A stretch of 64,000 bases of DNA from Paramacrobiotus metropolitanus. Taxonomy: Eukaryota; Tardigrada; Eutardigrada; Parachela; Macrobiotidae. The DNA is taken from assembly GCF_019649055.1 (NCBI RefSeq), contig NW_026570309.1:186001-250000 (forward strand), given 5' to 3'. The translations under genes and the position numbers were made by a program. Under the pieces are notes generated by a model. It made no database searches. It was not told where the DNA came from and worked only from the letters and a program-made list of their open reading frames with translations. Positions 4,857-46,856 of the stretch are shown here, one piece after another (within the stretch, counting starts at the first letter, position 1; the number at the start of each line of letters is the position of its first letter).

Positions 4857-5078
4857 ACTGACGACCATCGAGAATTTAAGCAATTCAGTCGCTGAGTTTC
4901 TCCTGTTTGTAATTGTCCTGTTTACCATTAGTTGTGTTTAGTTTAGTTTAGTATTAAGGCCAGATTGTTAGTAAAGCAGTTCCGGGTGTGTCTTAATCAG
5001 TGAAATGAATCCTTGTACTAATTTTTTATATTGACCTTTCGCTTATCATAGCGATGTTTTGTAGCGCCATAACATAAA

Positions 5079-5896
5079 ATGGCAAAATCTGTCGCGTCTT
5101 TACTGTCTAAACAATCTCTGCCATACTTCTTCCTGATTGTGTTCGTTTCCGGTCTGTGCTCCTGCCTTCCTGTTTCCAAGAAAGGAACAGATGATCCCGC
5201 CGGCCATGAACATAGGGGTGCCGTTCGAAAGGTTAGCGTGGATGGTGGCCAGCAGCTCGTACTAGCATGCGATGGCTATCACAGTGTAAGAGGGAAACCT
5301 ATAGCTTAATGGTGTGGACTCGATATTCTCGTAATGCATCGGATGACACTGCAACATATATTTACTGCGACACCATGAAAATGATCAGAGATCGACGCTA
5401 TCGCCTGACAAATGGGTTTGACTTGGAGATCCATAATACGACCTATGAAGACGTTGCTGTGTTTAAATGTTATGATCTACTCCACCCAGAAAACGCCACC
5501 CAATATAAAGTGGATGTGCATCTTCCACCGGAAGTCCACACGCAGCCAGTTATCCATTCTGGAGTACGTACCGCTGCTCCCAAATTAACAGGCACGATGC
5601 CTGACGAATCTGGTATAAACGATAATGATACGGTTACATACGACGACGAAGAAGCTGAAGAGGCGGAATTCGCGACCTATGCGGGCGCGCACCCGGAAGG
5701 AAGTGACTACGATGACGAATAGAGTGCTGCCAGCGAAGACTACACCAGCTGTCGAGAAGGATTTTGGTGGTCAGAGTGCGGACGACACGGGGCACCGCTT
5801 CACCGAAAACATGATGTGCGCTTGTGACACCGGAAGGGTGCTTTAACGGTGACGAATGTGCTAACATTGGCGATTTGCTCATTTCTGATTATGTGA
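5079..5896 (+). pseudogene. Ig-domain surface protein, copy 1, broken
   Basis: This is a copy of the Ig gene at 8352 with at least three lesions. It begins intact: MAKSV start, hydrophobic signal peptide, and the first Ig cysteine in the motif QQLVLACD. Near 5283 there are two extra bases relative to copy 2 (GATGGCTATCACAG region), which cause a frameshift and the stop of the first frame at 5307. The Ig fold then continues in another frame (MVWTRY, then the second cysteine in DVAVFKCYDL, then an acidic Asp/Glu linker). That frame meets a TAG at 5720. The C-terminal hydrophobic tail near 5840 has lost a further base. A shortened secreted product from the second frame cannot be excluded, but the Cys-Trp-Cys core is split between frames, so a pseudogene is far more likely. 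The upstream promoter block is still present. Confidence 0.8.
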
Positions 5897-8146: not shown

Positions 8147-8351
8147 CTGACGACGTGAATTTAAGCAACTGAGTCGCCGACTTTCTCCTTCCTGCTATTA
8201 TCCTGTTTTTGTTTGCTTGTTTTTTTGTCCTATTTAGCCAGATTGTTAGTAAACAGTTAATACCGTTGTGTCCAAATCGGTGAATCGTATCCTTGCTTTG
8301 ATTTTCTTGTTGACCTTTCGCTAAGCGATTTTCTGCAGCGCCACATATAAA

Positions 8352-9338
8352 ATGGCAAAATCTGTCGCGTTTTTATTATCTAAACACTGTCTGCCGTACG
8401 TCTTCCTACTTTTTTCCGTTTCCAACCTCTGTTCCTGCCTTCCTGTTTCTAGGAATGGAGCCGATAATCCCGCCGGCAATGAACATATGAGCGACGTTCG
8501 AAAGATTAGAGTTGATGGTGGTCAACAGCTTGTACTAGGATGCGATAACTATAACACGGTAACGCACAGGAAAACGAAAATGGTGTGGGTTCGATATTCT
8601 GGAAATATATCGGATAACGCTGCAACATATCTTTTTTATGACACTATAAAACTGATCAGAAATCGGCGCTATCATTTGACAAACGGATTCGACCTGGAGA
8701 TCCATAATGCTACGCATGAGGACATTGCTGTATTTCAATGTTATGATCTGCTCCGCCCACAGACTGCTACCCGATATCAAGTGGATGTGCAGAATCTTCC
8801 AGCGGAAGTCCAGACGCAGCTCGCTATCCATTCTGGTGCACGTACCGATGCTCCCAAATTAAAAGACACTACGTCTGACGAATTCGGCAATGAAACGGTC
8901 GCCTACGACGACGAAGAAGTGGAAGAGGTGGAAGTCGCGACTGATCCGGCCGCGGAACAGGAAGTAAGTGTTCATGATGATGCACTGGGCGCTGACAGCG
9001 AGGACTACACCGCAGTGGTGCTGGACGAGGAAGTGGACTATTTTGGTGTTGGATTGCCGGACGCCACCACGGATTCTGGATTCGATGCAAATGTAGGACA
9101 CAGAAACGCGCAACCGCCACCGGAAAGTGGAACACGGGATGCGGACACAGAAGCGGAGAAAACAACGATTTCCGGATGGAGCAAAGGTCAGGGACAGCAG
9201 GATTTTGTTGGCCCCGGTGCGGACGACACGGTGGGACTGCTTAGCCGAAAATTAGTGTGTACCTGCGGCGCCGGAAGGATGTTGTTAACGGTAAAGACGG
9301 TGCTGATGGGGATGATTTGCTCACTTTTGATTATGTGA
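8352..9338 (+). CDS. Secreted single-Ig-domain protein, probably GPI-anchored (Ig copy 2)
   Basis: A single exon encodes 328 residues. Residues 1-30 form a signal peptide (MAKSVAFLLS, then a Leu/Phe/Val-rich core ending CSCLPVS). Residues ~50-140 form a V-like immunoglobulin domain: first Cys in QQLVLGCD, core Trp in KMVWVRY, and DIAVFQCYD with the second Cys at the usual D-x-A-x-F-x-C spacing. N-glycosylation sequons (NIS, NAT) lie in the domain. A long acidic and Ser/Thr/Pro-rich stalk follows. A C-x-C pair (VCTCGAG) then leads into a hydrophobic stretch (MLLTVKTVLMGMICSLLIM) that ends exactly at the C terminus, the layout of a GPI-anchor signal; a tail-anchor is the alternative. Family members sit at 5079, 14305, 17499 and 23593. 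Partner and function are unknown; surface recognition is inference. Confidence 0.85.
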   Translation: MAKSVAFLLSKHCLPYVFLLFSVSNLCSCLPVSRNGADNPAGNEHMSDVRKIRVDGGQQLVLGCDNYNTVTHRKTKMVWVRYSGNISDNAATYLFYDTIKLIRNRRYHLTNGFDLEIHNATHEDIAVFQCYDLLRPQTATRYQVDVQNLPAEVQTQLAIHSGARTDAPKLKDTTSDEFGNETVAYDDEEVEEVEVATDPAAEQEVSVHDDALGADSEDYTAVVLDEEVDYFGVGLPDATTDSGFDANVGHRNAQPPPESGTRDADTEAEKTTISGWSKGQGQQDFVGPGADDTVGLLSRKLVCTCGAGRMLLTVKTVLMGMICSLLIM

Positions 9339-14124: not shown

Positions 14125-14304
14125 GACTCATGACTATCTTGAATTTAATTGATTGAGTCGCCAAATTTCCCCGTTTATCCTGTGCTTAGCGCTGACTAGG
14201 GTCAGATTATTAGTAATTAAACAGTTACTGCTGGTCCGAAGCATTGAATCGTATGCCCTACGCTGACCTTTCGACGTTTGGCATTGTAACGTTACATATA
14301 TATA

Positions 14305-15384
14305 ATGGCCAAATCTGTTGCGTCTTTATTGTCTGGATATCGCTGGTCACATGGCTTCCTGGTGTTCTCAGTTCTCGCCATATACCCTTCTACTCCTGTT
14401 CTTTCGGCCGATGCAGAAATCTCCGCATTAAGTCTACCTTGGCGCAGCCTTATCAAGATTAGCGTTGATGGTGGTCAGCAGCTCGTACTAGGGTGTGATA
14501 GCTATAACCCGGTAACGTCGGACAAATTAAGGAAATTGATGTGGGTTCGTTGTAATATTACGGATTACACTGAAACACCTCTGTTCTACGATACGGTTAG
14601 ACTGCTCAGGAAGCATGAACGCTATCAGTTGGTTAATGGGTTCGATTTGGAAATCCATAATGCTACTTATGAAGACATTGCGGTCTTTCAATGTTACGAT
14701 CTACTCCACCCGGAAGTAGCCACGCGGTACCTTGTGGATGTGCAGAATCTCCCATCGGAAGTACCGATACATCCCGATATCCCCGAAGACTCTGGAGTAC
14801 GTATCGATGCTCCCAAACTAAAAGATACGACGACTGACGAATCTGGAATATACGGCGATGGTACGGGCGCATACTACGACGCACAAGAGGAGGAGGCGGA
14901 AGCAAGTCGTCACCATGCAGGAGTGGGCGCTGACAGCGTGGACCACACCGTAGTGGAGAATGAAAGGGAAGTAGGAGATTCGGGCGTGGCATTTTCGGAC
15001 GCCACTACGCCTTCTAGACAGTATACAGATTCGGCACATACCGACGGACAACCGGCGCCGGGAAACGCAACACGTGGTTTTGGCACACAAGGAAGGAAAC
15101 CAACGGTCTCCGGATTATATGAAGATGTGGGACAGAGAAATGTGCAACTGGCACCGGGAAACGGATCACGAGATCCTGGCGCAGAAACGGAAAGAGCAAC
15201 GGTTTCCGGGTTGAGCCACGGTCACAGACAGGATTTTATTGGTCACAGCGCCGACAATACCATGGAACCGTTTAACTTAAGCATCGTGAAGATAGTGTGT
15301 ACCTGTACCAGTAGTGCCGGGAGGTTGCTGTTAACGGTGACGAATGTGCTGATGGCGACGGTGTGCTCATTTCTGATTTTGTGA
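14305..15384 (+). CDS. Secreted single-Ig-domain protein, probably GPI-anchored (Ig copy 3, longest stalk)
   Basis: A single exon encodes 359 residues. It has a MAKSVASLLS signal peptide, then the Ig domain with first Cys in QQLVLGCD, core Trp in KLMWVRC and second Cys in DIAVFQCYDLLHPE. The sequon NAT and an NIT are present. The N-terminal linker between signal and Ig domain differs from copies 1 and 2. The stalk contains two tandem copies of a ~40-residue unit (near 15030-15110 and 15125-15210, each with a Q-x-APGN..R core and ending TVSGL), where copy 2 has one. The protein ends with a C-x-C-containing segment and a terminal hydrophobic run (LLLTVTNVLMATVCSFLIL), as expected for GPI attachment. 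Known: Ig cell-surface proteins often bind ligands or each other. The function here is unknown. Confidence 0.85.
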   Translation: MAKSVASLLSGYRWSHGFLVFSVLAIYPSTPVLSADAEISALSLPWRSLIKISVDGGQQLVLGCDSYNPVTSDKLRKLMWVRCNITDYTETPLFYDTVRLLRKHERYQLVNGFDLEIHNATYEDIAVFQCYDLLHPEVATRYLVDVQNLPSEVPIHPDIPEDSGVRIDAPKLKDTTTDESGIYGDGTGAYYDAQEEEAEASRHHAGVGADSVDHTVVENEREVGDSGVAFSDATTPSRQYTDSAHTDGQPAPGNATRGFGTQGRKPTVSGLYEDVGQRNVQLAPGNGSRDPGAETERATVSGLSHGHRQDFIGHSADNTMEPFNLSIVKIVCTCTSSAGRLLLTVTNVLMATVCSFLIL

Positions 15385-17480
15385 TAATTGTGGTTTCTAA
15401 TGTCTTCTTGTTCTTATTCCTGCCGTTTAAGTCGCATTATCGGTCGTATAGCAGTTTATTTTTTATTTCTGATCAATATTATGTTAGCGGAAGGCTTCAC
15501 TAGGTTTTCTTATAATTAAGTACTTAAAGTACAGAGCAATGCAGTTGCTCTACGTGGCACGTATGCAGATGGATCAGGTCATGGTCGAGCTGACCACAAC
15601 ATTCCCATGCCGAACACTGACGACTGCGCTCATCATACGTGATCCTCACCCGTATATACTGTACATGATCCACAAATTACTACTCGTATTTTGCAAAATG
15701 ATACAGAAATACCACGTACGACGGTACGAGTCACGCACTACGAAACCGTGTTTTTTACTCAGATCTCATGATTGTACTATATTTTAATGCGCTGATCAAC
15801 AAATACAACTACACGCCGCGATCGAATTATAACTAGCGGTGGTTGATAACCACATCACTGCACCGAGCGCGAACAGTAACCACTGTGTCTGTTACGCATT
15901 TCCAGTACCACTTAAAAATGGTACGTACCACTGGAACTGGAATCAATGTGTGGATTTCCACATATCCCATAGGAAAGAGGGTTACGTACGCGCTTTTTGG
16001 CGTCAGACAAACTCTGCTTCTGCTGTGGAAGTATATACTCTGCTATGGAGCGTGTAGTCTTGACGATCAGTTACTGTAATTGCAGCACCTCGCGCTTCGC
16101 GCTCGGTGCAAATTATTCCGTTTAAGTCACGCACGGAAGCGTAAAGATTTGAACTACTTTTTCAGCTTTTAGATATAATTGTTATTATTAATTTCATGAA
16201 ACAGGATCACCGCGTTAGCGCTGTTGTCATTCGGATGACTACTTAGCTAATAGATTTGCGTTTTAATACAATGTAGCACCATCATCGTCCGATTAACATA
16301 TTCAGTTAAAGGATTTTTCAGTCGAACTGCATTGTACTACCTTCATGACCATGTATACAATTTCTACTGTACTTAATCGCTGTCGCAATACGCGTTTACT
16401 AGAGTAGGGATAACACACGCTAATTGCAATTTCACATCGATTATTGACATTGTTATATTGTACCTACATTATTTACCTAAACGTGGTCGATTAATAAAAT
16501 CAATGGGATTTTATAGAGTTCAACAGGAAATTTTCATCATGGATGGATACTTTACATTTGATTTGATGGCTATTGGTATTAGTATTATTAGTGTCTTCGC
16601 AAGGTCAAAATAAAGTTTGATGGGAAAGTTTGATGCGTAACCAGCTCCACTCCCTAATTAAAACTACGGTTATATGATATTTTGTGTTCGAAGTGCGTTT
16701 ATGGACGTTCTCTAACTTTTCGCACACTTAAACCGGTACAAGACAACAAGTTGATTTTTGCTGCAGACACGTATAAACATAGCAACCGGATAAAAATTTG
16801 ATTAAATGCAACATACGTTGTTTTTCGATCACTTTGCAAACAAAAACATAGCATAGGTCTTCCACAGCGCTCCACATATGCGGAGGACTGGAAGTGGACC
16901 GGCGGTTTTTTGTCTTTTCGGCCCAATTCGTGACAGACTACGCCGCACTGTATGTACAGTACAGTTGACATAAATAATAGTGCGCTCCACACAATACCAT
17001 TAATACAGTCACTACATTCAAACAGACACGCGTATTATCGAATACGCTGCCAGAGTTTGATGGCCAGCAAGCGCGTGCCTGCACGTTTTTATTACCCAAT
17101 TTTTTTGATAAGATTTTCAACCATTTCCAGTTTTTCCAAGTGGCAAAGCACTGCAGCTGTGATTCTCGGTGGTCGAGACTTATACTTTGTTCAACCAATT
17201 CGTAAACCAACGCAGATCGAAAGCGATGAACTTGCATGACGCATGCCTGGCACGCTTTGCGAAAAAAAAATGTCAATTTCATCTGGCACCACAGTACTGA
17301 GCAGCCAAGTCGTTGACTGACACCAATCCTGCGGTGCACGTGAGTTCTGGTTAATTCTTGGTAAGGACAAAAAAGTGTTCAACTATCAGAAAACTGAAAA
17401 TTATTCTGCTATCCTTTCGATCGGTGAAAAGTGCACTCGCATGGTGATTTGGTTAGCGCGCTGCGTTGTATCGTACTGTA
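15385..17480. other. Spacer between Ig copies 3 and 4
   Basis: No gene is supported. The first ~250 bases match the 3' flanks of the other Ig copies. An inverted pair of GC-rich words (TGCACCGAGCGCGAA near 15860 and TTCGCGCTCGGTGCA near 16095) frames about 250 bases and may be the remnant of a foldback element. The rest is AT-rich with no coding signal. Confidence 0.5.
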
Positions 17481-17498
17481 TGCTTATATATGCCGAAA

Positions 17499-18329
17499 AT
17501 GACAACGTCCGTTGCGTTTTTGTTATCCGGACACCGCTTGCCGTGCATCTTCCTGGTTTTCATGGTTTTCGGCCTTTGCTCCGGCTTTCGTGTTCCCTCG
17601 AAAGCAGCCGACATCCCCGCCAAGAATGGGCCTGCGCGCACCGTGAAAGATATTCGAAAGGTCAGCGTCGATGCCGGTAAAAATCTTCTATTAGACTGTG
17701 ACAGCGCCTCAAGGTCAATGGCTGCGGATAGTCAAATGATGTGGGTTCGCTACGATATCCTGCACAAAAATCCCGTGCCGCTGTTCCGCGACACCATACA
17801 ACTGTTGAGAAAGAATCAGCGCTATCATCTGGCTGGTGCGTTTGATTTGAGGATTCTTAATGTTACGGCGGAAGACATTGCTGTGTTTGAGTGTTTCGAC
17901 TTGGTGCACCCGGAAATCACCACACGGTACGAAGTGTTTGTGCGCAATCTCCCACCGGGAGGGAAGATCCAGCAAGTTGTCCCGGGAGATTCTGGAGTGC
18001 TTGTTAAAGTCCCTGAGCTGAAAGGTCACACGATGGACCAATCCGGAACAATGCCGAATGGTGCGAAACCGGTAGAACCAACGGGTGGCGGATCGGGCAA
18101 AGGTCATGCGGGACAGAAAAACGGAGAAGCGGACACAACGACGCCAGAGACAACGGCTTCTGGAGGGAGTAAAAGTCGTGCGGGGCAGAGCGGCTGTAAG
18201 GATCCGATGGCGGATGGTGCGATAGCAGTGCTGAACGGAACAACAGTGGGCACGTGTGGGGCCGGAAGGTTGCTGTTCACGGTGACGACTGTGGTGATGG
18301 TGGCAGTTTGCTCGTTTCTGATTACGTGA
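17499..18329 (+). CDS. Secreted single-Ig-domain protein, divergent (Ig copy 4)
   Basis: A single exon encodes about 276 residues. I chose the internal ATG at 17499 (MTTSVAFLLSGHRLP) because it aligns with the starts of the other copies; an upstream in-frame ATG at 17466 would add 11 residues. Signal peptide residues 1-30 are followed by an Ig domain with Cys in NLLLDCD, Trp in MMWVRY and the second Cys in DIAVFECFD. This copy has lost the Asp/Glu-rich linker and has a Gly/Lys/Thr-rich stalk instead, with NGT and NVT sequons. The terminus is GTCGAG followed by a hydrophobic tail ending CSFLIT, again GPI-like. It is the most diverged intact member. The ruined copy at 23593 is closest to it, sharing the MTTSV start and DSAS motif. 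Confidence 0.85.
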   Translation: MTTSVAFLLSGHRLPCIFLVFMVFGLCSGFRVPSKAADIPAKNGPARTVKDIRKVSVDAGKNLLLDCDSASRSMAADSQMMWVRYDILHKNPVPLFRDTIQLLRKNQRYHLAGAFDLRILNVTAEDIAVFECFDLVHPEITTRYEVFVRNLPPGGKIQQVVPGDSGVLVKVPELKGHTMDQSGTMPNGAKPVEPTGGGSGKGHAGQKNGEADTTTPETTASGGSKSRAGQSGCKDPMADGAIAVLNGTTVGTCGAGRLLFTVTTVVMVAVCSFLIT

Positions 18330-20278: not shown

Positions 20279-22927
20279 TTATAGGCTGGCAACGCGTCCC
20301 ATGAACGTCATCAGTTGTGTGGATTCATGGCGAATGGCAAAGAGGAATGGATGATCAGCGCGGAATTCCGGCGGTGGATCCAACGGTTCCTCGAAAGCGC
20401 ACTCCGTTACGCCTATGACGGCGGTGGCGGCCGCCGCTTCCGTTCCCGATTCGTTCACTTCTATTACAAAAAACAGGGTTGATAAATTAGCGGTTATTAA
20501 TAGCGCATTGAAAACTTTACATCTTTTTACTATGCGACTAATTTGACTAATAAATTAACTACAATATACACCAAATGCGCTTTTATGTGCAGAGAAAAAT
20601 TGTTTACATGAATGTGTAATTCCTTATGTGCACTTAACCTTCCTTTTTCAATTCTTATGATTTCATTCTGAAAACAGCGGATAAAATGCTGAAAATGTTC
20701 AGATTGCCTAAAATGCATATAAACAGCGGCGCTGTATATATGTATTTTAGGCACCAGCGCCCCCAAATAAATTTGAGAAACCAAAAAAGCCATAATTATG
20801 GAGATGCTTATCCTGACCTAACGAACCTAGAGTAGTGCTTTTGTAACAGCTAGCTTCAGTCTTTAACGGCTAAACCAAACGAGTAGCAGGAAGCGATGCG
20901 CTCCGGCCTACCAGTGCACAGTTCGGTGCACTTTCTTAGTTATTATTTATGATTATTTATTATTATTGATTTTATTACCGACGAAAGCTTTGTGAATGAC
21001 GTTGGACACGGTCAGCCGATCGTCGTCCACCATCCGGCTGAGATCGGCTTTCTCGAACAGCTGATGCACTCCCAGATTTTTCAGCACCGGCACCAGTTCG
21101 TACGATTGCTCCAGTTTGAATTTAGGCAAATACACATCAACCTGCACAAAATAATGTCCAGAAATAAATGGTAAAACCAGAACGACAAGAATTACCCATC
21201 TTATTGAACAAACAGTTTACTTGTTTTATTTGTAATCAGTAAGATAAAATTTTAAAATAGTAGGGTAACACTGAAACTTGGAAATTAATGTACGGCGCAA
21301 TACAGACAATATAAATAAAAGAATCTGACTGAAGTCAAATAAAATCTACTAACTACGGGTTCATTAATATTGAACGGAATGCAATAAAAAATGGGTCTAA
21401 TATCACTATATACCTTAATTTTCCCATTAGTCCAGCGAAAATTACAACAAAAATAGCATTTAAGTGACGGCAGCTGATAAGCGTGGGATCTTTATGACAA
21501 AAATGTCTATTATTATGGCAAAAACAATTATTTATTTTTTTGAACAACTATGTAAAACGGGTATGTCTTGAGTATTGTAAACGTACTATCAAACTGTATT
21601 TCCAAAAATTGTTAACAAATGAGACACGGTGGCATAAATATACAGCTACTAAATATGGCAAATAAGTCACTTCGACCAAGCTAAAGGCCGCAGTTTATCC
21701 AACGCACTACGAAAATGCCTTACGCGTAGTAGCGTATACCTCTTGTTCTGAGGCACTCTCAACCGCATCCCGCAGCATCCGCACGCTTAAATGCCCCTCC
21801 AACTCCTTCAAGCCATTACGCTTTTTAGGCAGCACGATGATCATGGACAATTCATGATTTTTGTAGGGCAGGCGCAGCAGCTGGAAGTGTTCATTCTCGG
21901 TGTAGCCGGCTTGGAGAGACTTGTGCATGAGGTCCACCTTGGAAGTCTGTCCGTTGAGATTGGTGAAATCGGCGTCCTTCCAGGTGGCATGTTCCTCGAA
22001 TTCTTCGTGCCACTGCGCCTTGAAATAAATGGCGTTAACCAGGACAAAAGCGGTGTCCGGGGTCACTGTCTGCGTGTTGACCAGGTCACGGATTTTGTTG
22101 TGGGTCTGCTTCTCCACCCATTGGTTGATCTCGGCGACCGCGCCAGCCGGATTGTTTTCGAAATCTGTTTCTCCCACTTCGCTTTTCAACTTATCTACCG
22201 GGAAATTCTCGATTATTTGGATGTACCTCGTATGTACTGATTTTTTAAAATAGAATTTATTGATTCTATTTAATGATTCTATCACAGCTTCATGATTAAA
22301 TAAATTTACTGAATATTTTCTTAGTCCAAAGTTATGGATTATTTAATTCTAATTCAAGATGATTGATTACGTTTGCTGAACATTTTTCCTTCGATTGAAA
22401 TTATACTGTAGATTCATGAGTAATTAAATTACCGATTATCTTCCAGCTTTTTTGCCCATCGGACAACGATCATGCGATCAATAAATCAGATTTTAATTAA
22501 GAACTTAATACAGCAAATTAAATTTCGCCAATTAGTTATTACGGTTTGTACCTGTAATGATGGCTTTGAAATCAGCTTTTACATGCAATCCCTTCCGCAA
22601 GTACGCTTTATTGGCCAGCGCCAAGTGATAGTTCTCCTCGCCATCTTCCTTTTTACTGGGCGCAAACACCCGCAACACCTCCCCGTACACATCCAATAGC
22701 TGCTTCTCGTTGCCGCCGAAGACTTTCTCCGGATGCAGCATGTTGGTCATCTCCTGTTTAGTAATGCCATCCGCTCCCAAATACGCCAGGAACAGTGCGC
22801 TCTGGATGCTGAATGGCGATAGGAAGGCATTCTTCTCGGCATTCGCTTTGTCCTGGATAATACTCTGGTAGATTTTCAAGGAGAACTGATCGGCCGCTTC
22901 GCGGAATCCTTCCAAACTGAGCGCCAT
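20279..22927 (-). CDS. Intracellular-type serpin, single reactive-centre exon (serpin A)
   Basis: Four exons on the minus strand: 22927-22552, 22194-21740, 21141-20979 and 20460-20279. They sum to 1176 nt (391 residues), the usual serpin length. Exon 1 begins [16 protein letters not shown] with no signal peptide, so the protein should be cytoplasmic or nuclear, as in clade B serpins. Exon 2 has the core around [15 protein letters not shown] and [17 protein letters not shown]; exon 3 has [16 protein letters not shown] and ISNVIHKAF-like [10 protein letters not shown]. Exon 4 carries the hinge [15 protein letters not shown], the reactive loop, and [11 protein letters not shown]. An intact hinge with small residues at P12-P9 indicates an inhibitory serpin. 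Counting hinge Gly as P15 gives P1-P1' Glu-Cys, the pair known from mammalian SERPINB9. Exons 1-3 have exactly the lengths of those of serpin B (376, 455, 163), so the two genes are recent duplicates. Confidence 0.92.
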
Positions 22928-23103: not shown

Positions 23104-23592
23104 TGCAAGCAATCAGTGCAGATATGAGCGGATAAGTCAGGCGTTTAAAGGTCGTTTGATGCTTAGGAATTATACTGAAGTACTGGATCTCCAGCTACTG
23201 CGTGCCACAGATGGGTATAATGCGGTTTCGGTCATGGGATCGGAAATGTTTAATGAGCTTTAGTGTTTTCTAGTTCTTAACAAATGTGCTGTTCGTATAC
23301 CTAGACTGTTTTTATAACACACTGTACGACGGTACGGGTCTGATAATTCTGCACGTACATTGCGGTGTACTGTACACGATTTAATTTGGAACGGAAGACA
23401 AAAACTTGCCGGTCTATTTCCGATCCTCCACATGATCCGAGAAAAAGACGACATAAACTCCCTTTCATTCCAGCATGCGGAAGCTGACAAAAATGGAAGA
23501 GTTGTTTCTAGAGTTATCTGTACTCGCTGCACCGAAGAAAATTCTTGTGAGAGTGCATCTCCTGAACCCCCAATAGTACATACTTTCAGGTA

Positions 23593-25590
23593 ATGACCAC
23601 ATCCGTCTTAAATTTTTATTTTCTGGGCACCGCTTTGTCGCGTTTGTTCCTGGTTTTTCTTCGTTTGCGGCCTCGGCTTCTGTATTCGTGTTGCCCCGAA
23701 AGAAGCAGGAACCGCCGCCAAAAAATATATCTATGCGCGGCATTGGATACTCGAAAGGTCACCGTTAATAAATGGTCAGAATCTCCTACTAAAGCGTGAC
23801 AGCGCTTCAACGTTAACCCTCCAGCGGGAGGTACCCGAAGGAGTGCGAGTTTCCTTATAAAAATCGGGATTTCCCGATGAAAAAATTCAATTAAGAAAGG
23901 GAATTTTTTGCGAGATGGTGCTGACCATAGGTCAGCCGTGGTGACCATGTTGTCGCCTGACGCCAATGCCCATGGACAGTCTACAGCATATAAACGTTTA
24001 ATTCTGTAATAACTAGTCGAAAAGTTATTACACAAAAGCAACAACTTCATTAAATAGCCCAAAAAAAGTACTTTAAAACAGAAGTATAGAAGTGGTCAAC
24101 AAGTTGACCACTGGTCAACAAGTTAACCACTGGTCAACAATAAATTAAAAATGACCAAAAGTCATTTTCATGCATTTTGACCATTACTACTGTACTGATA
24201 AAATATAGATTATTACAGTCATATGGTGCTGGACGAAGCGCTCTTTACAAAGTTTAACATAACACTTGCGTCATTTCGGGCACGCCAACCCGCCTTTATG
24301 TTTGCTTGTATTGCCTGGGGTTCTATGTTTCCTGGATTTGACCAGTGGCTACAAATGCCATTATCGGAAAAGCGGCGGGGGTAGTCCAGCTGCACTGGTG
24401 ATAGTTGCTGATTCAGATATTAGTGGTCACTATCACTTTTTGAAATGCACTAGCGGTAGGAAAGTAACCCGGAAGTAATGTGCACATCGCCAATGTGCAC
24501 AGTACAGTGTGCAACATTCTAGTTTGCAATCGCCCGAGTCCAGTCAAAGTTCCCATGTTTTTTTAAAGCTACCCAGCCCCACTTGCTTGGTTTATCCAAG
24601 TGACGCATCGCAAACATAGGTGGAAACGCGTCAGAGCGTAGTGTTGCGCTTCCATTTTACATTGTCATACACACTGTTTCCTCGAACGTGTTGCTGTCTG
24701 AACTCTGAAGGCTGACAACCTTCGAGACAATTTTACTATTTTGACCACCGCCCGGGGAGCTGATCCGCAGAAGCGCTTTTTGCCAGCTGCCGATAACCGG
24801 AACGGTGTGGCGCATGTTTGCTTACAAACCGACAGCAACTTTCCGGATACGTTATAAAAGCTGATGTCGAAATTGCACCCGCCCGTGGATTCAAGACCCT
24901 TCATGGGCAATGGTGTCAGCCGACGACACACGTTTTTCACGGACTGTGGTCATCTATGGTTCAACCTACAGTGTCCGTGTTAACCGTTTTCAGATAGAGC
25001 GTTCTCAGGTGTACCTTGTGGATTTATCTCCGGTTTAATTATTCATTCGCTAATTAATTAATTAGCAAGACCTACGACAGCTAGAAAAGTCCAAAATTAA
25101 CGATTTTTGCGGACCTGTCGTTCGTAATTAACTTGAGACAAAGGCTTCAATTACGTTTTTACTGCTGCTTCGAAGTCCCTTTTTGCTTTTTGTGCTATGG
25201 GATACCGATTAACTGTTTCGGATCACTGGGAAAAAAATCCCAAACACCTTGTCGTCGCCTGACGCCAGTGCCCGTCAACGGGTTAAAGAGAGAGTCCAGT
25301 AAAATGATATAGGTTCGCTTTACGTACTATTCTACATAAAACTTCCTTTGCCTCTTTTCAACGGCACGATAATACTGGAAGGAGAATCAGCGCTGTTATC
25401 TGACTAACGGATTCGACTTGGGTATTCGAATTATTGACAGCATGACTTCTGAAGATATTGCTGTGTGTGAGTGTTTCGACTTGTAATTGCGCCCGCAAAT
25501 TGCTGCGCGGTATATGTAAAGTGGTTGTGTACGATCTGCCACCGGAAGGACAAAAGCATCACATTGTCCCGGACGTTCTAGCAGCAGAAA
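23593..25590 (+). pseudogene. Ig-domain surface protein, copy 5, split by a TTAA element
   Basis: The left part (23593-23812) aligns with copy 4 from its start (ATGACCACATCCGTC) through the first Ig cysteine region to GACAGCGCTTCAACG. It carries frameshifts, and the cysteine codon is changed. A 1466-bp TTAA-flanked element follows. The right part resumes at 25287 and reads through the rest of the Ig fold: RCYLTNGFDLGI, then EDIAVCECFDL. It continues to DLPPEGQKHHIVPDV near 25585, again with stops between. Both halves belong to one former gene because the copy-4 alignment continues across the insertion. The stalk and anchor are gone: homology stops before the serpin cassette flank at about 25640. 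Confidence 0.8.
23817..25282 (-). mobile_element. piggyBac-type non-autonomous element, copy 2 (inverted)
   Basis: This 1466-bp copy matches the element at 9396-10864 in reverse orientation along its whole length. It begins CCCTCCAGCGGG, ends CCCGTCAACGGG, and is flanked by TTAA at 23813-23816 and 25283-25286. It contains three near-tandem copies of a GTTGACCACTGG-type word at about 24093-24140. It sits inside Ig copy 5. No transposase frame is visible. Confidence 0.8.
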
Positions 25591-25805: not shown

Positions 25806-25987
25806 TTATAAGCTGCCGACGCGTCCCATGAACGTCAGTAGTTGTGTGGCTTCATGCCGAATGGCAAAGAGGAATGGATGATCAGCGCGGAATGTCGGTG
25901 GTGGTTCCAAGCGTTCTTCAAAACTGCACTTCATAATGCCGATGACGGCGGTGGCCGCCGCCGCTTCCGTTCCCGCTTCGTTCACTT
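25806..25987 (-). CDS. Serpin B reactive-centre cassette B7 (most distal)
   Basis: Acceptor GTGACAG precedes AAGTGAACGAAG. Hinge [15 protein letters not shown] is intact; loop [16 protein letters not shown] gives P1-P1' Lys-Cys. The exon ends GRVGSL-stop. It is closest to the terminal exon of serpin A (both have AIRHE and TFMGRV), and their downstream flanks are homologous (25640-25805 and 20120-20278). Its use by serpin B is inferred from order and phase, because about 4.8 kb and six other cassettes separate it from shared exon 3. Confidence 0.82.
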
Positions 25988-28900
25988 CTGTCACATCAAA
26001 GAAGAAACGTTAGCGGTTATATGTGCATATACACGTACCTAGTGGTTCTTGCGCGTTTATACGAGTATTTAGCTGGTTGCTGAAATTTTACAGCGTCAAG
26101 CTGTGCATATTTTTGCACTCGTTGTTTGATTGAAAGTCCTTTGAATAATTGCCGGATATGCATGATTTCCCTGTTGTCGTTCTTTTTTGTTTTGCCGACT
26201 GCGAATCGGCGACTACTTTTCGCTCGTTTTTGAACAGAAATTATTGTATGTATGGGTAGTGTTTTATTTCAGTTGAATTTGCGGCAACAGGGTGACTTTT
26301 ATTGCGGTGTCAGCCTTAATTTTATTTAATACAGCTCTTCCAGAGTGCAAATGTTCGTGAACAATTAAGCATCGACATATTGCGTTATATAGTTAGGAAG
26401 CGAGAAATTATTATTTTTTAAAGATTGTCAATGTCGAAAGCCACGTGCAGCTCAACGGAAAAATTTCGGAAGAAAATGCAACAGCAGCGCTGCAGTATGT
26501 AGATGTACATAGATAACAGACGAATGCTATGTTTCACAGTTTTCCGACGCGACCCAGGAATGTCAGTAGACCGGTGGACTGGTGTTGGATGGCAAAGAGA
26601 AACGGGTGATCAGCACGGAAAACCGGTTTTTCCATCAGAAGGAAATTCATACTGCGCAGCATTACGCCCACAACGGCCGTGGCGGCCGCCGCTTCCGTTC
26701 CCGACTCGTTCACTTCTGTTATACAACAGCGTACGTAAATTAATTTGCGGTTATTACTGAACTGACGGAATTTGCGGTTATTACTGCACAGATGCAGTGT
26801 ACCTATAATTATGTACAGTACTACAAGCGCTGTTGTTTTCATATATGCAGATGTAAAAACTGCTAACGTGAATGGGTTATTATTACCATCTGTACAAATG
26901 CCAACTTATATAGAAGTATGTACAAAGTACGCTGTAACTGTTGCAAATAAACTAATTTTGACACTTTTCACTGCATAAGAGTTTTTTGAATTCGTCTTTT
27001 TTATTGCTGGGAGTTGTGGTCATTTGTAACAAATGATGAAGTGATAAAGAGGGAATTCAAGTGGTTTGTAAACTTTTAAACTTTTAAACTTTTAAACCTT
27101 TAAACTTTTAAACCTGCTGCACCTGGAGTACTTAAGCTGTCTTAAGGTTTATAACACTTCTTTGAATCAGCTAAAAGTTCTTGACTAATTTTTTTAGCTA
27201 CCTAAAATTTTTAAACTAATTGTTTTAGTTTTAGCCAGGTTAACCGCAGTTAACCGACTAATTAGTCGGCTAATTTTAGTTTTTTTTCATGATATGGGTA
27301 GTTCTTTATTTGGCTCAAATTTGCGGCAGCAAAGTAACCTTTATTGTGATGTCAGCCTCTTTTATTTATTGCAGCTCTTCCAAAGTCCAAATGTTCATGT
27401 GCAATAAAAGTCATAATTCTTCATAGTTACAGGAAGCGAGAAACTATTAATTTTTGTAGATTGTCTTAATGTCGAAAAGCAATGTGCAGCTCAACGGGAA
27501 AATTCCAGAAGAAAAGGAGCAGCAGTGCTGCATATATACTGGACATGACAGATTAATGCCATGTTTCACAGTTTTCCGACGCGACCCAGGAATGTCAGTA
27601 GGCCGGTGGACTGGTGTTGGATGGCGAAGAGAAACGGGTGATCAGCACGGAAAACCGGTGGTTCCACTATACGGATATTCATACTGCACAACATCACGCC
27701 CACAACGGCCGTGGCGGCTGCCGCTTCCGTTCCCGACTCGTTCACTTCTGTTACACAACAGCGTAGATACGTTAATTAGCGGTTATTACGGTACAGATGT
27801 AGTGTACCTACAATGTACAGTACTACCATCGCTTCTATTTTCATATGCAGATAAAAAAAATGCTTCCGAGAACGGGTTATTATCGCTCTCTGTGCAAATG
27901 CTAATTTTTATATGTATAGACCACAGAATACGCTGCAACTGTCGCACTAACTAATTTTGACACTTTTCAGTGCATGAGAGTGAGTTTTCCGAATTCGTCT
28001 TTTTTATTGGAGGGAGTTGCGGTTGCTTATAACAAAGGATGAAGTGATACCTTGGGAATTCAAGTGGTTTGTACTGAGTTCCTTTCTAATCCTGCTGTAC
28101 AATAAAGTGTACAGAGTGCTTAACCATACGCTAACCGTGCTTAAGGTTTACAAACACTTAATCTTTGAATACATATCGTATACGTATATCCACGCATGAG
28201 CCGCATATAAGAACATGTAATTTCCTTATTTACGTTGTTTCTTGAGTGATTGACTGCGAGGTTGCGAATGCATTTGATCTTTTTAGGCAGTAAAATACTA
28301 TTAACTATATATTTTTCCTTTGCGCCCAGTGATATAAGCAAAAAGTGGTTGTATATATGCAGTACGAATCACAGTCTTCCGACGCGACCCAGAAAAGCCA
28401 GCAGTCCGGTAGACTGGTGTTGGATGGCGAAAAGAAACGGGTGATCAGCACGGAACACTGGCGGCGCTTCCCGATGAACAAGAGCGCTTTTTTTCTTGGC
28501 AATGACCGCCGTGGCGGCGGCTGCTTCCGTGCCGGATTCGTTCACCTCTGCAATCAATCCCTCAGAAATTTAACCGCTGCTTACGGTTAAGTTTTGTTAA
28601 TAATTATTACGAAGTTTATTAAGTAATTAATTTTATCCAACCAAAAGTGGAAAGTACTGAGTTTATCGATTTTACAAATTATCAAACACTGTAATCAAAC
28701 ACATGCAGTCGAACACACCAACCAATGCCCTCGGTGTCCGTTGTCGCTAAACATTTTAAACCATAATATATTGGTGATTACATTCATTTTATTTACCATA
28801 ACACAATGTCGCTACATCCATTTAATTTATCAGATTTTTATACACCATTTTTCTTCGTTTATAGTTTTTATTTATCAAAAGTATCGTAACACGATGCTCT

Positions 28901-31900
28901 CTGGAAATGAGCAAAATTCTGTCGCGTATGAAAAAAAGTATATTCATTTCCATTCTGTTCTATATTGTTCTGTTCGACTATTCAAATGTGTTAAAATGCT
29001 GAAGTCATCGATTAACGGTGAAGGAAAGCATAAAAGACAGAAAGCTGAAAACTTGATCAGCACATCATGCAGCAGCTCAAAAGCCGAACGCGAAAATTGT
29101 GTGCTGTGTTAATAACGATGGATTAGTTTGACAAGACAACGACACGACCCAGGAAAGCCAGTAAGCCGGTGTGGCGGTGCTGGATGGCGAAGAGAAAGGG
29201 ATGGTCAGCACGGAATATGGGCGGTGGATGGGAAAGGCCGTATAGACTGCAGTCCACGGCAACGATGGCCGTGGCCGCCGCCGCTTCTGTCCCGGCCTCG
29301 TTGACCTCTGTAACCAGCCTCACGCTGTACTATTTCGCTGCACCAGCGTCACGCACGGCAATATAAATATCCTGTTAAATTAAAAATATTATTTGACTTT
29401 TGAATCTCTATAATTTAAATATAATTATAGCCGCACATGATTGGTTGTTTGAAATTTTTACAATTGCTTAATGATTCATTTCATACTTCGGTTTTTAGTT
29501 CTTTCGAGTTGTGATAAATACCCAGTACCATAACATGCGATTATATCGAACTCATGCTTCTCCGCGCAGTATACCACGTTCGAATCGCAAGCAGCTGTGT
29601 CGAGATAATCCCAAAGAGAGCGATTATAAGAGACCGGTGTTCACAATGATTCGGAAAAAATGAAGAAACAGTTGGCTCCGAAATAGAAATATGTACGCAT
29701 TGGCGGCATTGTACAGTTTTGCGACAGGACCCAGAAAGATCAGCAGATCGGTGGCCCGGTGTTGAATGGTGAAGAGAAACGGGTGAAACGGAACACCGGC
29801 GGCTCTTCCTCGCGCTTAATGCGGCTGCGACGCGCAGCGAGCACCGCCGAAGCGGCGGCTGCTTCAATGCCGGATTTGTTTACAAGGAATTAATCAGAAA
29901 TCTCTTGTCGGTAAATTCCTGCAGTTCCAAAAATTATCCATCGATTTTGTTTCTTATTTGATTTCAATAGAATGCTTTATTGCGCACGGTCTATCTTGTG
30001 TTTTGCTGTAGTTTTTTTCTTTTACCGTTGGGTAACGCTTTCTGATACTGTTTTTCGTATACCTCGTTTATATACAGTACGAGTCGTCTAGTGTCTTTTT
30101 AGCAAAGTATTTCCTTGAATAATTTCTGTTATTTTGTTTCACATTTTGTTTGTTGATTAAAACAAAAACATTCAACAGGCATAAACGTTAAAAAAATTAA
30201 AATTATGATGATTACCGCATGTCAAACTATTGGGCTGCAGGATAAGACGTTCGTGAGTAAAGAATTATATTAAATTATACTAAAGCGGACTCCGATCGCA
30301 CTTTTACAAGGCTGCGACGCGGCCCAAGAAAGCCAGTAAGCCTGTCTGGCGGTGCTGGATGGCGAAGAGGAAGGGATGGTCAGCGCGGAAAATGGGCGGT
30401 GGATTGGGATTTACGAACATACTGCAACCGAAGGCGACGATGACCGCCGTGGCCGCCGCCGCTTCCGTCCCGGCCTCGTTGACCTCTGTAAACACCCTAA
30501 TGCTAATTTTTGTTGCACCGGTGTGTATGGCGCGCATGAACACCTTCGTTCCAATGTTCTGTAATTTGTTGGTTCAATTTTTTTTGTATATGTTATCTAC
30601 GTAGATTTCTATTTGTATTATGATGATAAAAGCGTAACTGGTTTTTCGAACGACATTAATGTTGATGTGATATGGCACATGTATTTTTCCGGTACATATA
30701 TGGTATGATTCGGCTGGATTTCTATTGGTTGCCGTGATAATTGGCGGTATAAGCTCGATGCTGGGAATATTTTGCAAAAATTAATATTGATCAAAATTTC
30801 TTACCGACAAAAGCTTTGTGAATGACGTTGGACACGGCCAGTCGTTCGTTTTCCACCATCCGGCTCAAATCGGCTTCCTCGAACAGCTGTCGGACGCCCA
30901 GACTTTGCAGCACCGGCACCAGTTCGTACGATTGCTCCAGTTTGAATTTGGGCAGATACACATCAACCTGCACAGATCAGTTCCCAGAAATAAACTGTTA
31001 AACCAAAACTATGAAAATCAACCAGCTTACCAAACAAAAACTACAGTTGCCTACATGCATGATACAGCAATATAAATAAAATCACAAGGCTGTAATAAAA
31101 ACAAATCTTTTTATCTTTTTGAAGATCATAATAATTATACGGTACAATACAGTCTTTTACAGATATAGTACGAGTACCAACAAAAGAATAAGACCCTAGT
31201 CAGATGGAATTTATAAATACGTAAAACAGTTAAAGGCATACAACAAAAACATACTGTAGCAATATTCTACAAAAACAAATTACATTCCTTAATTTTCCGA
31301 ATTTCCCAGCGAAAGTTAAACAAAAATAACAGTTGACGGCAAGTGCCTATCTGTAGCTAAGCGTTGGAGTTTTATTACAAAAATATTGTTTTATTTATTT
31401 AAGCACACCTACATAATTTGGACGTGATATTTTAGAAGTACTTGATTTTTATAGTGCTTGTCCTTAATTGCTTTATAGCCAATGCACTACGAAAATGCCT
31501 TACCTCGCGTTCTGAAGCCTTCTCAACCGCATCCCGCAGCATCCGCACGCTTAACTGGCCCTCCAACTCTTTCAACCCGTTACGTTTTTTAGGCAGTACA
31601 ATAATCATGGACAGCTCGTGATTTTTATAGGGCAGACGCAGCAGCTGGAAGTGCTCGGTCTCGGTGTAGCCGGCCTGCAGGGACTTGTGCATGAGATCGA
31701 CCTTGGAAGTCTGCCCGTTTAGATTGGTGAAATCGGCGTCCTTGTAGGTGGCATGCTCCTCGAATTCCTTGTGCCACTGCGCCTTGAAGTAGATGGCGTT
31801 GACCAGGACGAAAGCGGTGTCCGGGGTCACTGTCTGCGTGCTGACGAGGTCACGGATTTTGTTGTGGGTCTGCTTCTCCACCCACTGGTTGATCTCGGCG

Positions 31901-32990
31901 ACGGCGCCAGCCGGATTGTTTTCGAAATCAGTTTCACCCACTTCGCTTTTCAATTTATCTACCGGGAAAATTATCGATTTTATACTCAGATGTGTTTACT
32001 GATATTGTAAAATTTAACTTATTGATCATTTTGCTTAATAATTAATCGAAAATTATAAAATATTTTTCTTAGTTTAAATTTATTGACATGAATTGCATTT
32101 ACTCATTAATATTGTGAATTTCCCAATTGATTAAATTTATTGAATAATTCATTGATTCATCATTTCTAATGAAAAATATCGATTATTTTTCGTAATACTG
32201 CAGAGTTTTTTATTTGAATATATATGTCATTACAGTAAGCAAATACTCGTAACAATTTCGTCTCGGTTGCAATCGTAGCTAAAATCGAGATTATCTGGAT
32301 TAATTTACAACTATTATGATTAATTTACTATCGAGCTGTTTCTGCCCAGCCAACAACGAGAATAAATTAGAAAAATTTTAGTACCAGACTATAAATCATC
32401 ATTAAACAATTTAAACCGATAACGGTACGGCAACTGCTAAATATTTAAAATCAATAACTGGCTAATGGGTACAGATAAGATTTTTATCGTATGCAAATAA
32501 TGTAACTACATAAAAACTACGCGAGTAACTGGGCTTTTCAAACCATATTCGCCGGCATACTGTAGATCAGCGCGATAAAATATAATTTTTGTTTTATTTA
32601 TTGTTATGATGTACCTTTAATGGTGGCTTTGAAATCGGCTTTCACATGCAATCCCTTCCGCAAGTACGCTTTATTGGCCAGCGCCAAGTGATAGTTCTCC
32701 ACACCATCGTCATTTTTGCTGGGCACAAACACCCGCAACACCTCCCCGTACACATCCAAAAGCTGCTGCTCGTTGCCGCCGAAGGCTTTCTCCAGATGCA
32801 GCGTGTTGGCCATCTCCTGTTTCGTGCTGCCATCCGCGCCCAAATACGCCAGGAGCAGTGCGCTCTGGATGCTCAACGGCGACAGGAATGCATTCTTTTC
32901 CGCATTCTCTTTATCCTGGATAATATTCTGGTAAATCTTCAAGGAGAACTGATCGGCCGCTTCGCGGAATTCCTCCAGATTGGGCGCCAT
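25806..32990 (-). CDS. Serpin with an array of alternative reactive-centre exons (serpin B)
   Basis: The shared exons on the minus strand are 32990-32615, 31958-31504 and 30967-30805. They encode the serpin body up to [10 protein letters not shown] and end in phase 1 (GTC G). Downstream lie seven mutually similar terminal exons (separate entries), six of them intact. Each starts after an AG acceptor with AA or AG that completes a Glu codon, encodes hinge, reactive loop and C-terminal strands, and ends with its own stop. Any intact one gives a complete serpin of 390-392 residues. There is no signal peptide ([16 protein letters not shown]), so the products should be intracellular. Alternative reactive-loop exons are known in Manduca serpin-1 and Drosophila Spn4, where splicing changes protease specificity without changing the scaffold. 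AATAAA-type signals on the minus strand follow several cassettes, which suggests alternative last exons. Splicing itself is inferred from sequence. Confidence 0.9.
26534..26715 (-). CDS. Serpin B reactive-centre cassette B6
   Basis: Acceptor TATAACAG precedes AAGTGAACGAG. Hinge [15 protein letters not shown] is intact; loop [16 protein letters not shown] gives P1-P1' Leu-Arg by counting, or Arg-Ser with a one-residue shift (the pair of antithrombin). The exon ends GRVGKL-stop. It differs from B5 mainly within the P1' side of the loop. Confidence 0.87.
27566..27747 (-). CDS. Serpin B reactive-centre cassette B5
   Basis: Acceptor GTAACAG precedes AAGTGAACGAG. Hinge [15 protein letters not shown] is intact; loop [16 protein letters not shown] gives P1-P1' Leu-Cys. 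The exon ends GRVGKL-stop. It is nearly identical outside the loop to B6, and the 3' flanks of both are homologous over several hundred bases, so B5 and B6 are a recent tandem duplication. Confidence 0.87.
28369..28547 (-). CDS. Serpin B reactive-centre cassette B4
   Basis: Acceptor GATTGCAG precedes AGGTGAACGAATCC. Hinge [15 protein letters not shown] is intact. Loop [15 protein letters not shown] has a lysine triplet before Ser, giving P1-P1' Lys-Ser, so trypsin-like proteases are the predicted targets. The exon ends GRVGRL-stop. Length is 179 nt, with a loop one residue shorter than B5 and B6. Confidence 0.87.
29123..29307 (-). CDS. Serpin B reactive-centre cassette B3
   Basis: Acceptor GGTTACAG precedes AGGTCAACGAGG. 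Hinge [15 protein letters not shown] is intact, with loop [15 protein letters not shown], one residue shorter than B1. The exon ends GRVVVLSN-stop, two residues longer at the C terminus than the others. P1-P1' by counting is Cys-Ser, or Asp-Cys if the register moves by one. Length is 185 nt with the frame kept. Confidence 0.85.
29705..29888 (-). pseudogene. Decayed serpin B reactive-centre cassette B2
   Basis: This is recognisable as a cassette by [14 protein letters not shown] and, later, HPFLFTIQH and a LLIFLG core. The acceptor AG is missing (CTTGTAAAC where the others have CAG). About four bases are lost inside FRADHPF, which shifts the frame, and the hinge P14 Thr is Ile. The loop is strikingly basic ([12 protein letters not shown]), unlike any intact cassette, so a basic-specific inhibitor seems to have been lost. 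Confidence 0.75.
30304..30485 (-). CDS. Serpin B reactive-centre cassette B1
   Basis: This is the first alternative terminal exon after the shared exons. Acceptor TTTACAG precedes AGGTCAACGAGG. Hinge [15 protein letters not shown] is intact, the loop continues [16 protein letters not shown], and [11 protein letters not shown] and GRVAAL-stop end the exon. Counting hinge Gly as P15 puts Gly-Cys at P1-P1'; a one-residue shift gives Cys-Ser. Length is 182 nt, as in most of the other cassettes. Confidence 0.85.
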
Positions 32991-43992: not shown

Positions 43993-46856
43993 ATGGACGT
44001 CTCGTCGGTCTTCTTCTTCCTCCTGCGTCTCTTCGGTCAAGGCTGGGGTCTGGCCGCCGATGGGGACCGCCGGAAGCACTGCCACGCCCTTCTGGCGCTG
44101 GTCTGGCTGTTCCTCCTCGTCCTGCTGTGGAGTCTGGATTTCTTCCTCTACCTGACCTTTTTCCGGGAGCGCGTACAGGACATGGACTTCAGTGCGCTGA
44201 CCATCGGTATTCAGCGCTGCTACATCGTCGCCGAGGCCATCGCCATGCTCCTCATCGCCAAACTCATCGGCAACCAGCCGCTGCGGTTACTGGACGACAT
44301 CCGCCGGCTGTGCTTCCTCCCGGTGGAGGACGCCATCCCGGATGCCGGAAATGGACCGCGAAAGGTCACACGCCTAAATTTACTGACATCCAATTATTGA
44401 TTGTTGATGTTGCGTTTATAGAATAGTTTGCTGCGTCGTCAGCGTTATACATGGCAGTTTTGGGGCGGTGTCCTGATTTTCTGGAGCATCGCCGCGTCCC
44501 TCCTCCTGGGCGGTCTGCAGTGCTACTTCTTCATTAACTTCCTGGCCAGCACCATGATGAAGGACAACTGGAATTGGTACCGCGTTGTCGACGTGGGATT
44601 GGTGACCCTCCCGGTGTATGTCGGCACCGTCGTCTTCTTCCTGCTGGCGGCCGTCAATACTATCCTGGACATGCTACTGCAGATGTTGGGGGTCTGGTGC
44701 GCCCTGGCCATCAGCGCCGCCTTCCGCCAAGTGTACAAGGACCTCAAGGCCCTGTCCAAAGCCATCGACGCGCATGCCCTCCCCGGGGAGGCGGCCGCCA
44801 TGGAGCGCGTAGAGGCGCTGAGCGCCCGGCACCTGGCGCTCAGCCAGCTGGTCAACCGCACTGACGCGGCATTTTCCGGGGTCAACCTGCTGGTGTGTCT
44901 GCGGGATTTTGTGGGGTTTGTCACCGGGTGCGCGGCGCTGCTGCGGGCCGATGAGGACGTCACCGGCGTTAATGCCCGGTTCGATGCCAACGCCCGGGAC
45001 ATCGCGTTGGGGGTGGATTTTCTGGCGAGGACGACGTGCGGGGCGTATCTGGCTGTGTCCATGGTCAACTGTGTCCTGCGCATGTCTGCTTTCATCCGCT
45101 TAACGGAAACGGTACGATTACGAATTTACAAGTACCACACTAAAAATACAAAATTGTTCTAAAATTATTAGAAAGCTAGATAAAAAATGCAAGCGTTCTT
45201 GGCATTGCTTGAGTGCAAACCGAGGTTTGTAAAACAGTGAATATTGTGCCTAATAATAAAAGTTTATGTATGTATTGATAGTAAACAGTAGTGCATGTGC
45301 GTTTCTTACTTGTATGTGTACAAATCACGCATACATCTATACAAGTAGGCAAAAGTAGGCCGGGCCAGCCAATGGCAATTGCGAAAACGTCTTAGTTGTA
45401 TGTATGTATGCGTGATTTGTACACATACAAGTTGCAGCGCTAATGCACTAGTATTAAACACAGAAGGTAAAACCGAGCTGAATATACTGTATATCGGATA
45501 TAAATGTTAATAGTATTACTCGAAACGCACTTTAAATGTGTTCTGTAAGATACAGAGCCGGGAGTTCTGTAAAAGTGAATCTACCAATGGTACAGCGCTG
45601 AATCTTATAGAGCGTTACAGAGCAATGAGAGCTCGGACTCTAAAAGCGCCCAGTTACCGTTGACCAATTTGGTCAACGATTTATTTATTTTTCACAACAA
45701 TTTTGTGGCCGTTTACTTCCTGTTTTTCTGGCGATTTTAAGTTTTATTAAGTTGAAGAAATCAGACGACTGGTGAAAAAGCGAAACGCAATTGCACGTAA
45801 AGTACGTCGAGGTGGTTTTACCATTCCTCGCTCTGACGGCTATGGCGAAGTTGCCTGTTGCCATCGATACAAATCAAACATGCACAGTCGGAGGCAGCAT
45901 AAAAACAGTGAACAAAGCAGAACTGGAATGCTGATTCGATAGAAACAATTAAATTCCCGTTACTTACCCTCAAATCTTGAAAATTAAAAATAGGACTTTA
46001 GACGTACAGCGGACTGTGCATAAAAAAATAAATTTGACATAGCAAGAAATGCGAGTTCTGTATCGTAACGGAGCCAGGAGAGTTCCTTTTAGATACAGAA
46101 CACTTTAACTCAGACGTCCAATCAGCGGTAAGGGGGTGGTATCAAAAGTTACAGAACTTCCGGCTCTGTATCTTATAGAACACAATTTAAAGTGCGTTTC
46201 GAGTAGTACTGTGAAATAATTCATAAATAAAATAATAAAATAATAATTCATAAATAAAATAATAAAATAATAATTCATAATTCATAATTCATAATTCATA
46301 ATTCATAAATAATAATTCATAATTCATAATTCATAATTCATAATTCATAATTCATAATTCATAATTCATAAATAATTCATAAATAATTACTGTGAAATAA
46401 TTCTTGTTAATAATTATTGCGAATAATAATGGTGATTATTTATTCCTTTACATGATGTACAAAAGTTTATGATTTAGGGTAAATCGGCACTGCGCCCATT
46501 AAGTCTAATCTTTGAACAAGTGACCACGTTGGAGGCGAAGACCAGCATGATCCTGATTCTGAACCGCATCCGCGGCCACAGCCTGACGCTGACCGGCGGT
46601 GGCCTCTTCTCTCTTGATCGGTCTTTCGTCGTCACTGTGAGCTTCAGTTAACCGGTTTTTTTTAGTCGAAACAAAATTGGTTAACATAATTTTTCGGCAG
46701 ATGTTCGGAAGCTTCTTCTCCTTTTTTATCCTGGTGTACCAAATGCAGGATCAGAAGAAGGACATCTACTCCGTCATCACGCAGGACGATGTCCACGGGC
46801 TGGCCGCCCAGGTGGCCAACATCACGCGGCACATTCTGACTAGTCCGGCCACGTGA
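43993..46856 (+). CDS. Gustatory-receptor-like seven-transmembrane protein
   Basis: Four phase-0 exons: 43993-44364, 44422-45111, 46478-46636 and 46701-46856, giving 458 residues. Hydrophobic segments are spread as in 7TM chemoreceptors: ALLALVWLFLLVLLWSLDFF and IAMLLIAKLIG in exon 1; FWGGVLIFWSIAASLLLGG, VGTVVFFLLAAVNTILDML and GVNLLVCLRDFVGFVTG in exon 2. The last two exons carry the signature of the insect GR family: LTLTGGGLFSLDRSFVVT followed by MFGSFFSFFILVYQMQ. This matches the conserved TM7 pattern in which a charged or polar hhh-LDRS segment leads into TYhhhhhQF. GRs are ligand-gated channels of sensory neurons. The donor after exon 1 (AAG|GTCACA) is weak; phase and homology support it. 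Intron 2 contains an insertion element and a microsatellite. Confidence 0.82.
45308..45432. repeat. Perfect 29-bp inverted repeat
   Basis: Bases 45308-45336 (starting ACTTGTATGTGTAC) and 45404-45432 (starting ATGTATGCGTGATT) are exact reverse complements around a 67-base centre. Perfect arms suggest recent origin or conversion. It lies in intron 2 of the chemoreceptor gene. Confidence 0.85.
45519..46203. mobile_element. TA-flanked non-autonomous DNA transposon in the chemoreceptor intron
   Basis: This 685-bp element has inverted repeats of about 50 bases. The left end starts CTCGAAACGCACTTTAAAT; the right end is its near-complement, ending AAGTGCGTTTCGAG. TA flanks both sides (45517-45518 and 46204-46205). 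Both ends continue through GATACAGAGCCGG. There is no transposase. A TA target with long inverted ends fits a Tc1/mariner-type MITE. Confidence 0.75.
46217..46390. repeat. (TTCATAA)n microsatellite
   Basis: About twenty copies of TTCATAA and its variant TTCATAAATAA lie directly after the inserted element. This is an ordinary simple repeat, probably variable in length. Confidence 0.9.

Follow-up and report, generated by a model that had tools for sequence, protein, structure and literature searches.

The locus described here raises the question of whether a single tardigrade gene can supply several protease inhibitors by exchanging only the exon that carries the reactive loop. It lies in a 64,000-nucleotide stretch of Paramacrobiotus metropolitanus DNA, called here the window (C89:186001-250000 of a searched genome of 169,799,020 bases in 533 contigs). 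We consider it very likely that one serpin gene (gene 1) gives rise to several inhibitors, in which a scaffold of 331 residues is completed by one of six alternative last exons. How each cassette is spliced, which poly(A) site it uses, that the products inhibit, what they target and where they act are all matters that we infer from the gene and its predicted proteins. The first-pass annotation had guessed that the DNA could come from a tardigrade, and the genome indeed contains both CAHS genes (20 matches to the query, the best-scoring one 65% identical) and SAHS genes (11 matches, all on contig C3), families that are to our knowledge specific to tardigrades. According to an excerpt of one study, both are absent from heterotardigrades (PMC8277472). 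A lipocalin search for SAHS was set aside, as it gave four matches (three over the cut-off) and the top frame looked like an ordinary fatty-acid-binding protein.

Gene 1 consists of shared body exons followed by several homologous loop exons in the same phase (Table 1). The shared exons have GT/AG borders and join into an open frame that spans 331 codons and one further base, as expected from the earlier description of three shared exons ending in phase 1. An in-frame TAA stands two codons upstream of the ATG, and a TATAAA about 180 nt upstream of it, in a 5' flank that is common to the tandem paralogue. The same description had a row of seven homologous terminal exons, six of them intact, and this held when acceptor, phase, frame, stop and Pfam match were checked: every intact cassette has an AG acceptor (all six acceptor positions, the upper coordinates in Table 1, had been placed correctly), continues the frame from exon 3 to a stop, and alone matches PF00079 from profile position 316 to 367/368 of 370 (E 8.4e-16 to 5.3e-14). 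Assembled isoform D contains a full serpin domain, its residues 11-387 matching positions 2-367 of the 370 in the same profile (E 1.9e-113). The cassettes encode 59-61 residues including the hinge, which reads GTEAAAAT in six of six intact cassettes and also in cassette H of the paralogue. Inhibitory serpins have a hinge of small residues, with P15-P8 of the GTEAAAAT type, so the cassettes of gene 1 carry the hinge of a predicted inhibitory serpin. A short tandem array (8-base unit, 5.6 copies) lies at 27069-27113, between cassettes E and F.

Table 1. Exons of the two serpin genes in the window (positions within the window; the slash marks the exon end)
Feature	Position	Strand	Remarks
Gene 1, shared exon 1	32615..32990	-	start codon at 32990
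Gene 1, shared exon 2	31504..31958	-	
Gene 1, shared exon 3	30805..30967	-	phase 1 end just before the hinge (..HKAFV/G)
Cassette A	30304..30485	-	intact; AATAAA 323 nt after stop
Cassette C	29713..29883 (about)	-	decayed; AG acceptor absent, frameshift, altered hinge
Cassette B	29123..29307	-	intact; AATAAA 251 nt after stop
Cassette D	28369..28547	-	intact; AATAAA 361 nt after stop
Cassette E	27566..27747	-	intact; AATAAA 196 nt after stop
Cassette F	26534..26715	-	intact; AATAAA 208 nt after stop
Cassette G	25806..25987	-	intact; AATAAA 100 nt after stop
Gene 2 (tandem paralogue)	20279..22927	-	body exons 22927-22552, 22194-21740, 21141-20979
Cassette H	20460-20279	-	sole terminal exon of gene 2; sister of G

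A row of serpin C-termini could also be the visible part of several separate serpin genes, with body exons that are located elsewhere or went undetected. The complete second serpin gene nearby, which the earlier description had not mentioned, does indicate that tandem duplication of whole genes happens at this locus, and cassettes with body exons of their own upstream were the finding that would have told against the earlier proposal. However, when the body and the six cassettes were run by tblastn against the whole window (E up to 0.01), no serpin body exon turned up between the cassettes, body exons being present only at 32990-30806 and, in the second gene, at 22927-20980; none appeared there among the matches listed in the genome searches either. 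Separate genes are thus an extremely improbable reading of the row. Between the two serpin genes lie remnants at 23592-23816 and 25298-25572 (+ strand, 69-70% alike) of a tandem family of open frames whose starts are signal-like (8325-9335, 14290-15381 and 17457-18326 on the + strand, with a copy at 5051-5893), which suggests a duplicated block; in two of the three scanned members of the family, matches to the immunoglobulin V-set were seen that were weak and stayed below the Pfam cut-off. Elsewhere in the window, frames at 44422-45159 and 57362-57850 (+ strand) have weak matches, below Pfam cut-offs, to the chemosensory 7tm_7 and Srw GPCR families.

The cassettes differ from each other above all in the loop. 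Pooled dN/dS, obtained by counting methods from 21 mutually dependent pairs of cassettes A, B, D, E, F, G and H, was 0.02 in the hinge (14 codons), 0.61 in the loop (18 columns) and 0.12 in the C-terminal part (28 codons); being below 1, the loop value falls short of demonstrating positive selection. The youngest pair, E and F, has changes at 7.5 of 41.7 nonsynonymous sites in the loop and at 0 of 92.4 such sites in the flanks (p 6e-5 in a Fisher test that took 7.5 as 8). As far as the sequences go, a frozen hinge with a free loop is the pattern of exchangeable loops on a fixed machine, unlike that of relics. This bears on the possibility that a single cassette is used, for example G, which is kept in the paralogue, and that the rest are relics of failed tandem duplications. 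The paralogue with its one terminal exon would fit such a history, as would cassette C, in which the hinge half and the C-terminal half match in different frames and which, aligned with D, is missing the acceptor AG and four coding bases; one dead cassette also means that the loss of a cassette is tolerated. Relics, however, would be expected to decay like C, whereas six frames have stayed open despite synonymous distances of at least 0.8 between lineages and with the hinge as constrained as it is, and we therefore regard this explanation as very unlikely. Gene anatomy, the absence of extra body exons and the selection pattern together support what had first been proposed, a single scaffold with exchangeable reactive-loop exons.

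In the mechanism that we propose for such an exchange, exon 3 would be joined to one of the six last exons, each encoding hinge, reactive loop and C-terminal strands. Because each cassette ends in a stop codon, a single one can be read per message. Each would probably end in its own poly(A) site: AATAAA follows the stop by 100-361 nt in six of six intact cassettes, in each case before the next intact one, so the choice is probably made among alternative last exons, and a chosen acceptor and poly(A) site would end the message. With a stop and a downstream AATAAA of its own for each intact cassette, exclusivity needs no special device. AATAAA or ATTAAA was found 23 times in seven 700-nt stretches compared to a mean of 9.6 in shuffles, a weak control that kept base composition only, for a motif common in AT-rich DNA and with some stretches running into the next cassette. 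The acceptors of A, B and D have weak pyrimidine tracts (0.41-0.47), as does that of constitutive exon 3 (0.47). In this tiny sample, the tracts at the acceptors of G and H are richer than those of A, B and D, which could help distal exons to compete.

The protease would cleave the loop and then be trapped by the usual serpin mechanism, the loop setting the target. The scissile bond may be placed in either of two ways. A count of 17 residues from the hinge Glu would put it at G/C in A, C/S in B, K/S in D, L/C in E, L/R in F and K/C in G. With the conserved Ser taken as P1', P1 would be C in A, B, E and G, K in D and R in F. Trypsin-like enzymes, for example, would be suitable targets for the loop of D (KKK/S). 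In A, B, E and G, a Cys stands at or adjoining the likely scissile bond. Part of an earlier report describes many intracellular serpins as having a Cys in the exposed loop (PMC2689274), and according to an excerpt of another, orthologues of Spn42Da in other Drosophila species include some with a Cys/Ser scissile pair (PMC2770083). The protein of gene 1 has no visible signal peptide in the sequence from the ATG, and it is probably an intracellular serpin, as its predicted N-terminus suggests, although a further upstream exon may be spliced into exon 1.

The tandem paralogue provides information on the age of the array. Its 5' flank, body exons and terminal exon H all align with gene 1, and 297 of 331 body residues are identical. 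H matches G best, with a similarity that extends into about 225 bases of 3' flank, and in a cassette tree of 16 rows the G/H branch was the single starred one among 13 inner branches, the other forks being poorly supported. Synonymous distances (dS) were 0.13 for E/F, 0.31 for G/H and 0.42 for A/B, at least 0.82 for the other 18 cassette pairs (two saturated), and 0.355 between the bodies of the two genes. By its dS, cassette F is a recent copy of E. On these distances, four lineages of cassettes or more (A/B, D, E/F and G) appear to predate the gene duplication, which suggests that the array is older than the event that gave the paralogue. In that case the paralogue has lost its other cassettes, or only the last one was copied. 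Gene conversion and the shortness of the sequences may distort these duplication dates. Tandem duplication of exons would have enlarged the array, most likely in the tardigrade lineage itself.

Serpins look strongly expanded in this genome: 109 core-exon hits were found (not a gene count), several of them on each of contigs C3, C31, C80, C101, C128 and C230. A PF00079 search gave at least 141 exon-wise matches (111 of 308 candidates scored). With the protein of cassette E as query, 79 matches were found at E up to 0.1, and since this search used a single protein instead of a cassette profile, it may have overlooked further cassettes of divergent sequence. When the 109 core-exon hits (N-terminal and C-terminal fragments omitted), some of which are pieces of one gene, were paired with the 79 terminal exons, 77 terminal exons were assigned to 69 bodies, leaving two orphans and 40 unpaired body hits. 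More than one terminal exon was seen for three of the 69 bodies before checking and for two afterwards, gene 1 and a distant paralogue on C30, these numbers being lower bounds. The candidate that was dropped, on C128, had its second exon 6.9 kb off, beyond serpin genes on the opposite strand. The C30 gene (C30:408800-412600) shares 165 of 329 aligned body residues with gene 1. An AATAAA or ATTAAA stands 273 nt after its first cassette and none within 600 nt after its second, which speaks against the idea of separate poly(A) sites in the C30 gene.

The splice site used by the array appears to be general. Of 24 further terminal exons, which were chosen by hand, all 24 start behind an AG in phase 1 that lies shortly before the hinge: L010-L029 (19 from the 79 cassette E matches and one from the PF00079 search, two of them encoding the same protein), two of the C30 gene, one on C124 and the orphan L007, which is cut short by a stop.

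The same strategy is known from other animals, for which we draw on excerpts of the published accounts. Serpin-1 of Manduca sexta likewise has one scaffold and many alternative exons for the reactive loop and C-terminus (PMC5691223). Its forms 1K (PDB entry 1SEK) and 1B (1K9O) are alike over QKAFIEVNEEGAEAAAANAF and diverge beyond it, with a few scattered differences elsewhere, so that the hinge falls in the shared part, whereas in gene 1 it lies inside each cassette and the insect-type boundary after the hinge was not found. In gene 1 the junction falls within the codon for the Glu that precedes VNE, some 15 residues upstream of the Manduca divergence point, which is placed where the two proteins part and not from an exon border. 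Manduca serpin-1 is a secreted blood protein, in contrast to the gene 1 product with no visible signal peptide. In Pteromalus, PpSerpin-1 has 21 C-terminal forms with higher dN/dS in the alternative exons (PMC10513286); its splice point is at the end of the hinge and the alternative regions are 44-50 residues long, compared to 59-61 in gene 1, where the hinge is counted in. Drosophila Spn42Da (Spn4) likewise has shared core exons and then four alternative loop exons (PMC4006314). It also has alternative signal-peptide exons, while none was noticed for gene 1, where no dedicated search was made, and the phylum differs. The C30 gene resembles Spn42Da in its possible upstream, in-frame signal-peptide exon, its two cassettes and a basic loop (VRQKRS in one cassette, in which RQKRS looks like a proprotein convertase site). 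Multiple reactive-centre exon cassettes are also reported for serpins of nematodes (Kruger et al. 2002), likened here by description only.

The occurrence of one strategy in insects, nematodes and urochordates, as far as the excerpts describe it, could mean that the tardigrade arrangement is homologous to the insect and nematode cassette genes and comes from an early ecdysozoan, an origin that would be compatible with the cassette mechanism itself. Yet Manduca serpin-1K and 1B part after the hinge and the tardigrade cassettes start before it, and the hinge intron, found throughout the serpins sampled from this genome, was available for local duplication; the cassette tree took in no insect or nematode cassette. 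We hold this shared ancestry to be unlikely. The boundary unlike that of Manduca serpin-1 favours an independent origin, probably by convergence; the first-pass annotation had spoken of an independent or undescribed case should the DNA come from another phylum. We lean towards the view that loop swapping is an invention of the tardigrades themselves, in that the hinge intron would have let hinge, loop and C-terminus be duplicated together, as one self-contained last exon, with a probably intracellular array and a two-cassette gene with a furin-like loop as the outcome.

In the portions of the open-access literature on serpins and tardigrades that were available, we found no account of serpin splicing in tardigrades, and the word serpin is absent from the main text of two Paramacrobiotus papers. 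Excerpts of the tardigrade literature do name a 'Serpin B9' of H. exemplaris among glycoproteins and include a Milnesium serpin peptide. If our reading is true, reactive-loop swapping, described in the excerpts for insects, nematodes and urochordates, would be extended to tardigrades. With a hinge of its own in each exon, gene 1 tests the need for a fixed hinge in the shared part, and the tandem paralogue with its single terminal exon would serve as a built-in comparison for the gain and loss of such arrays.
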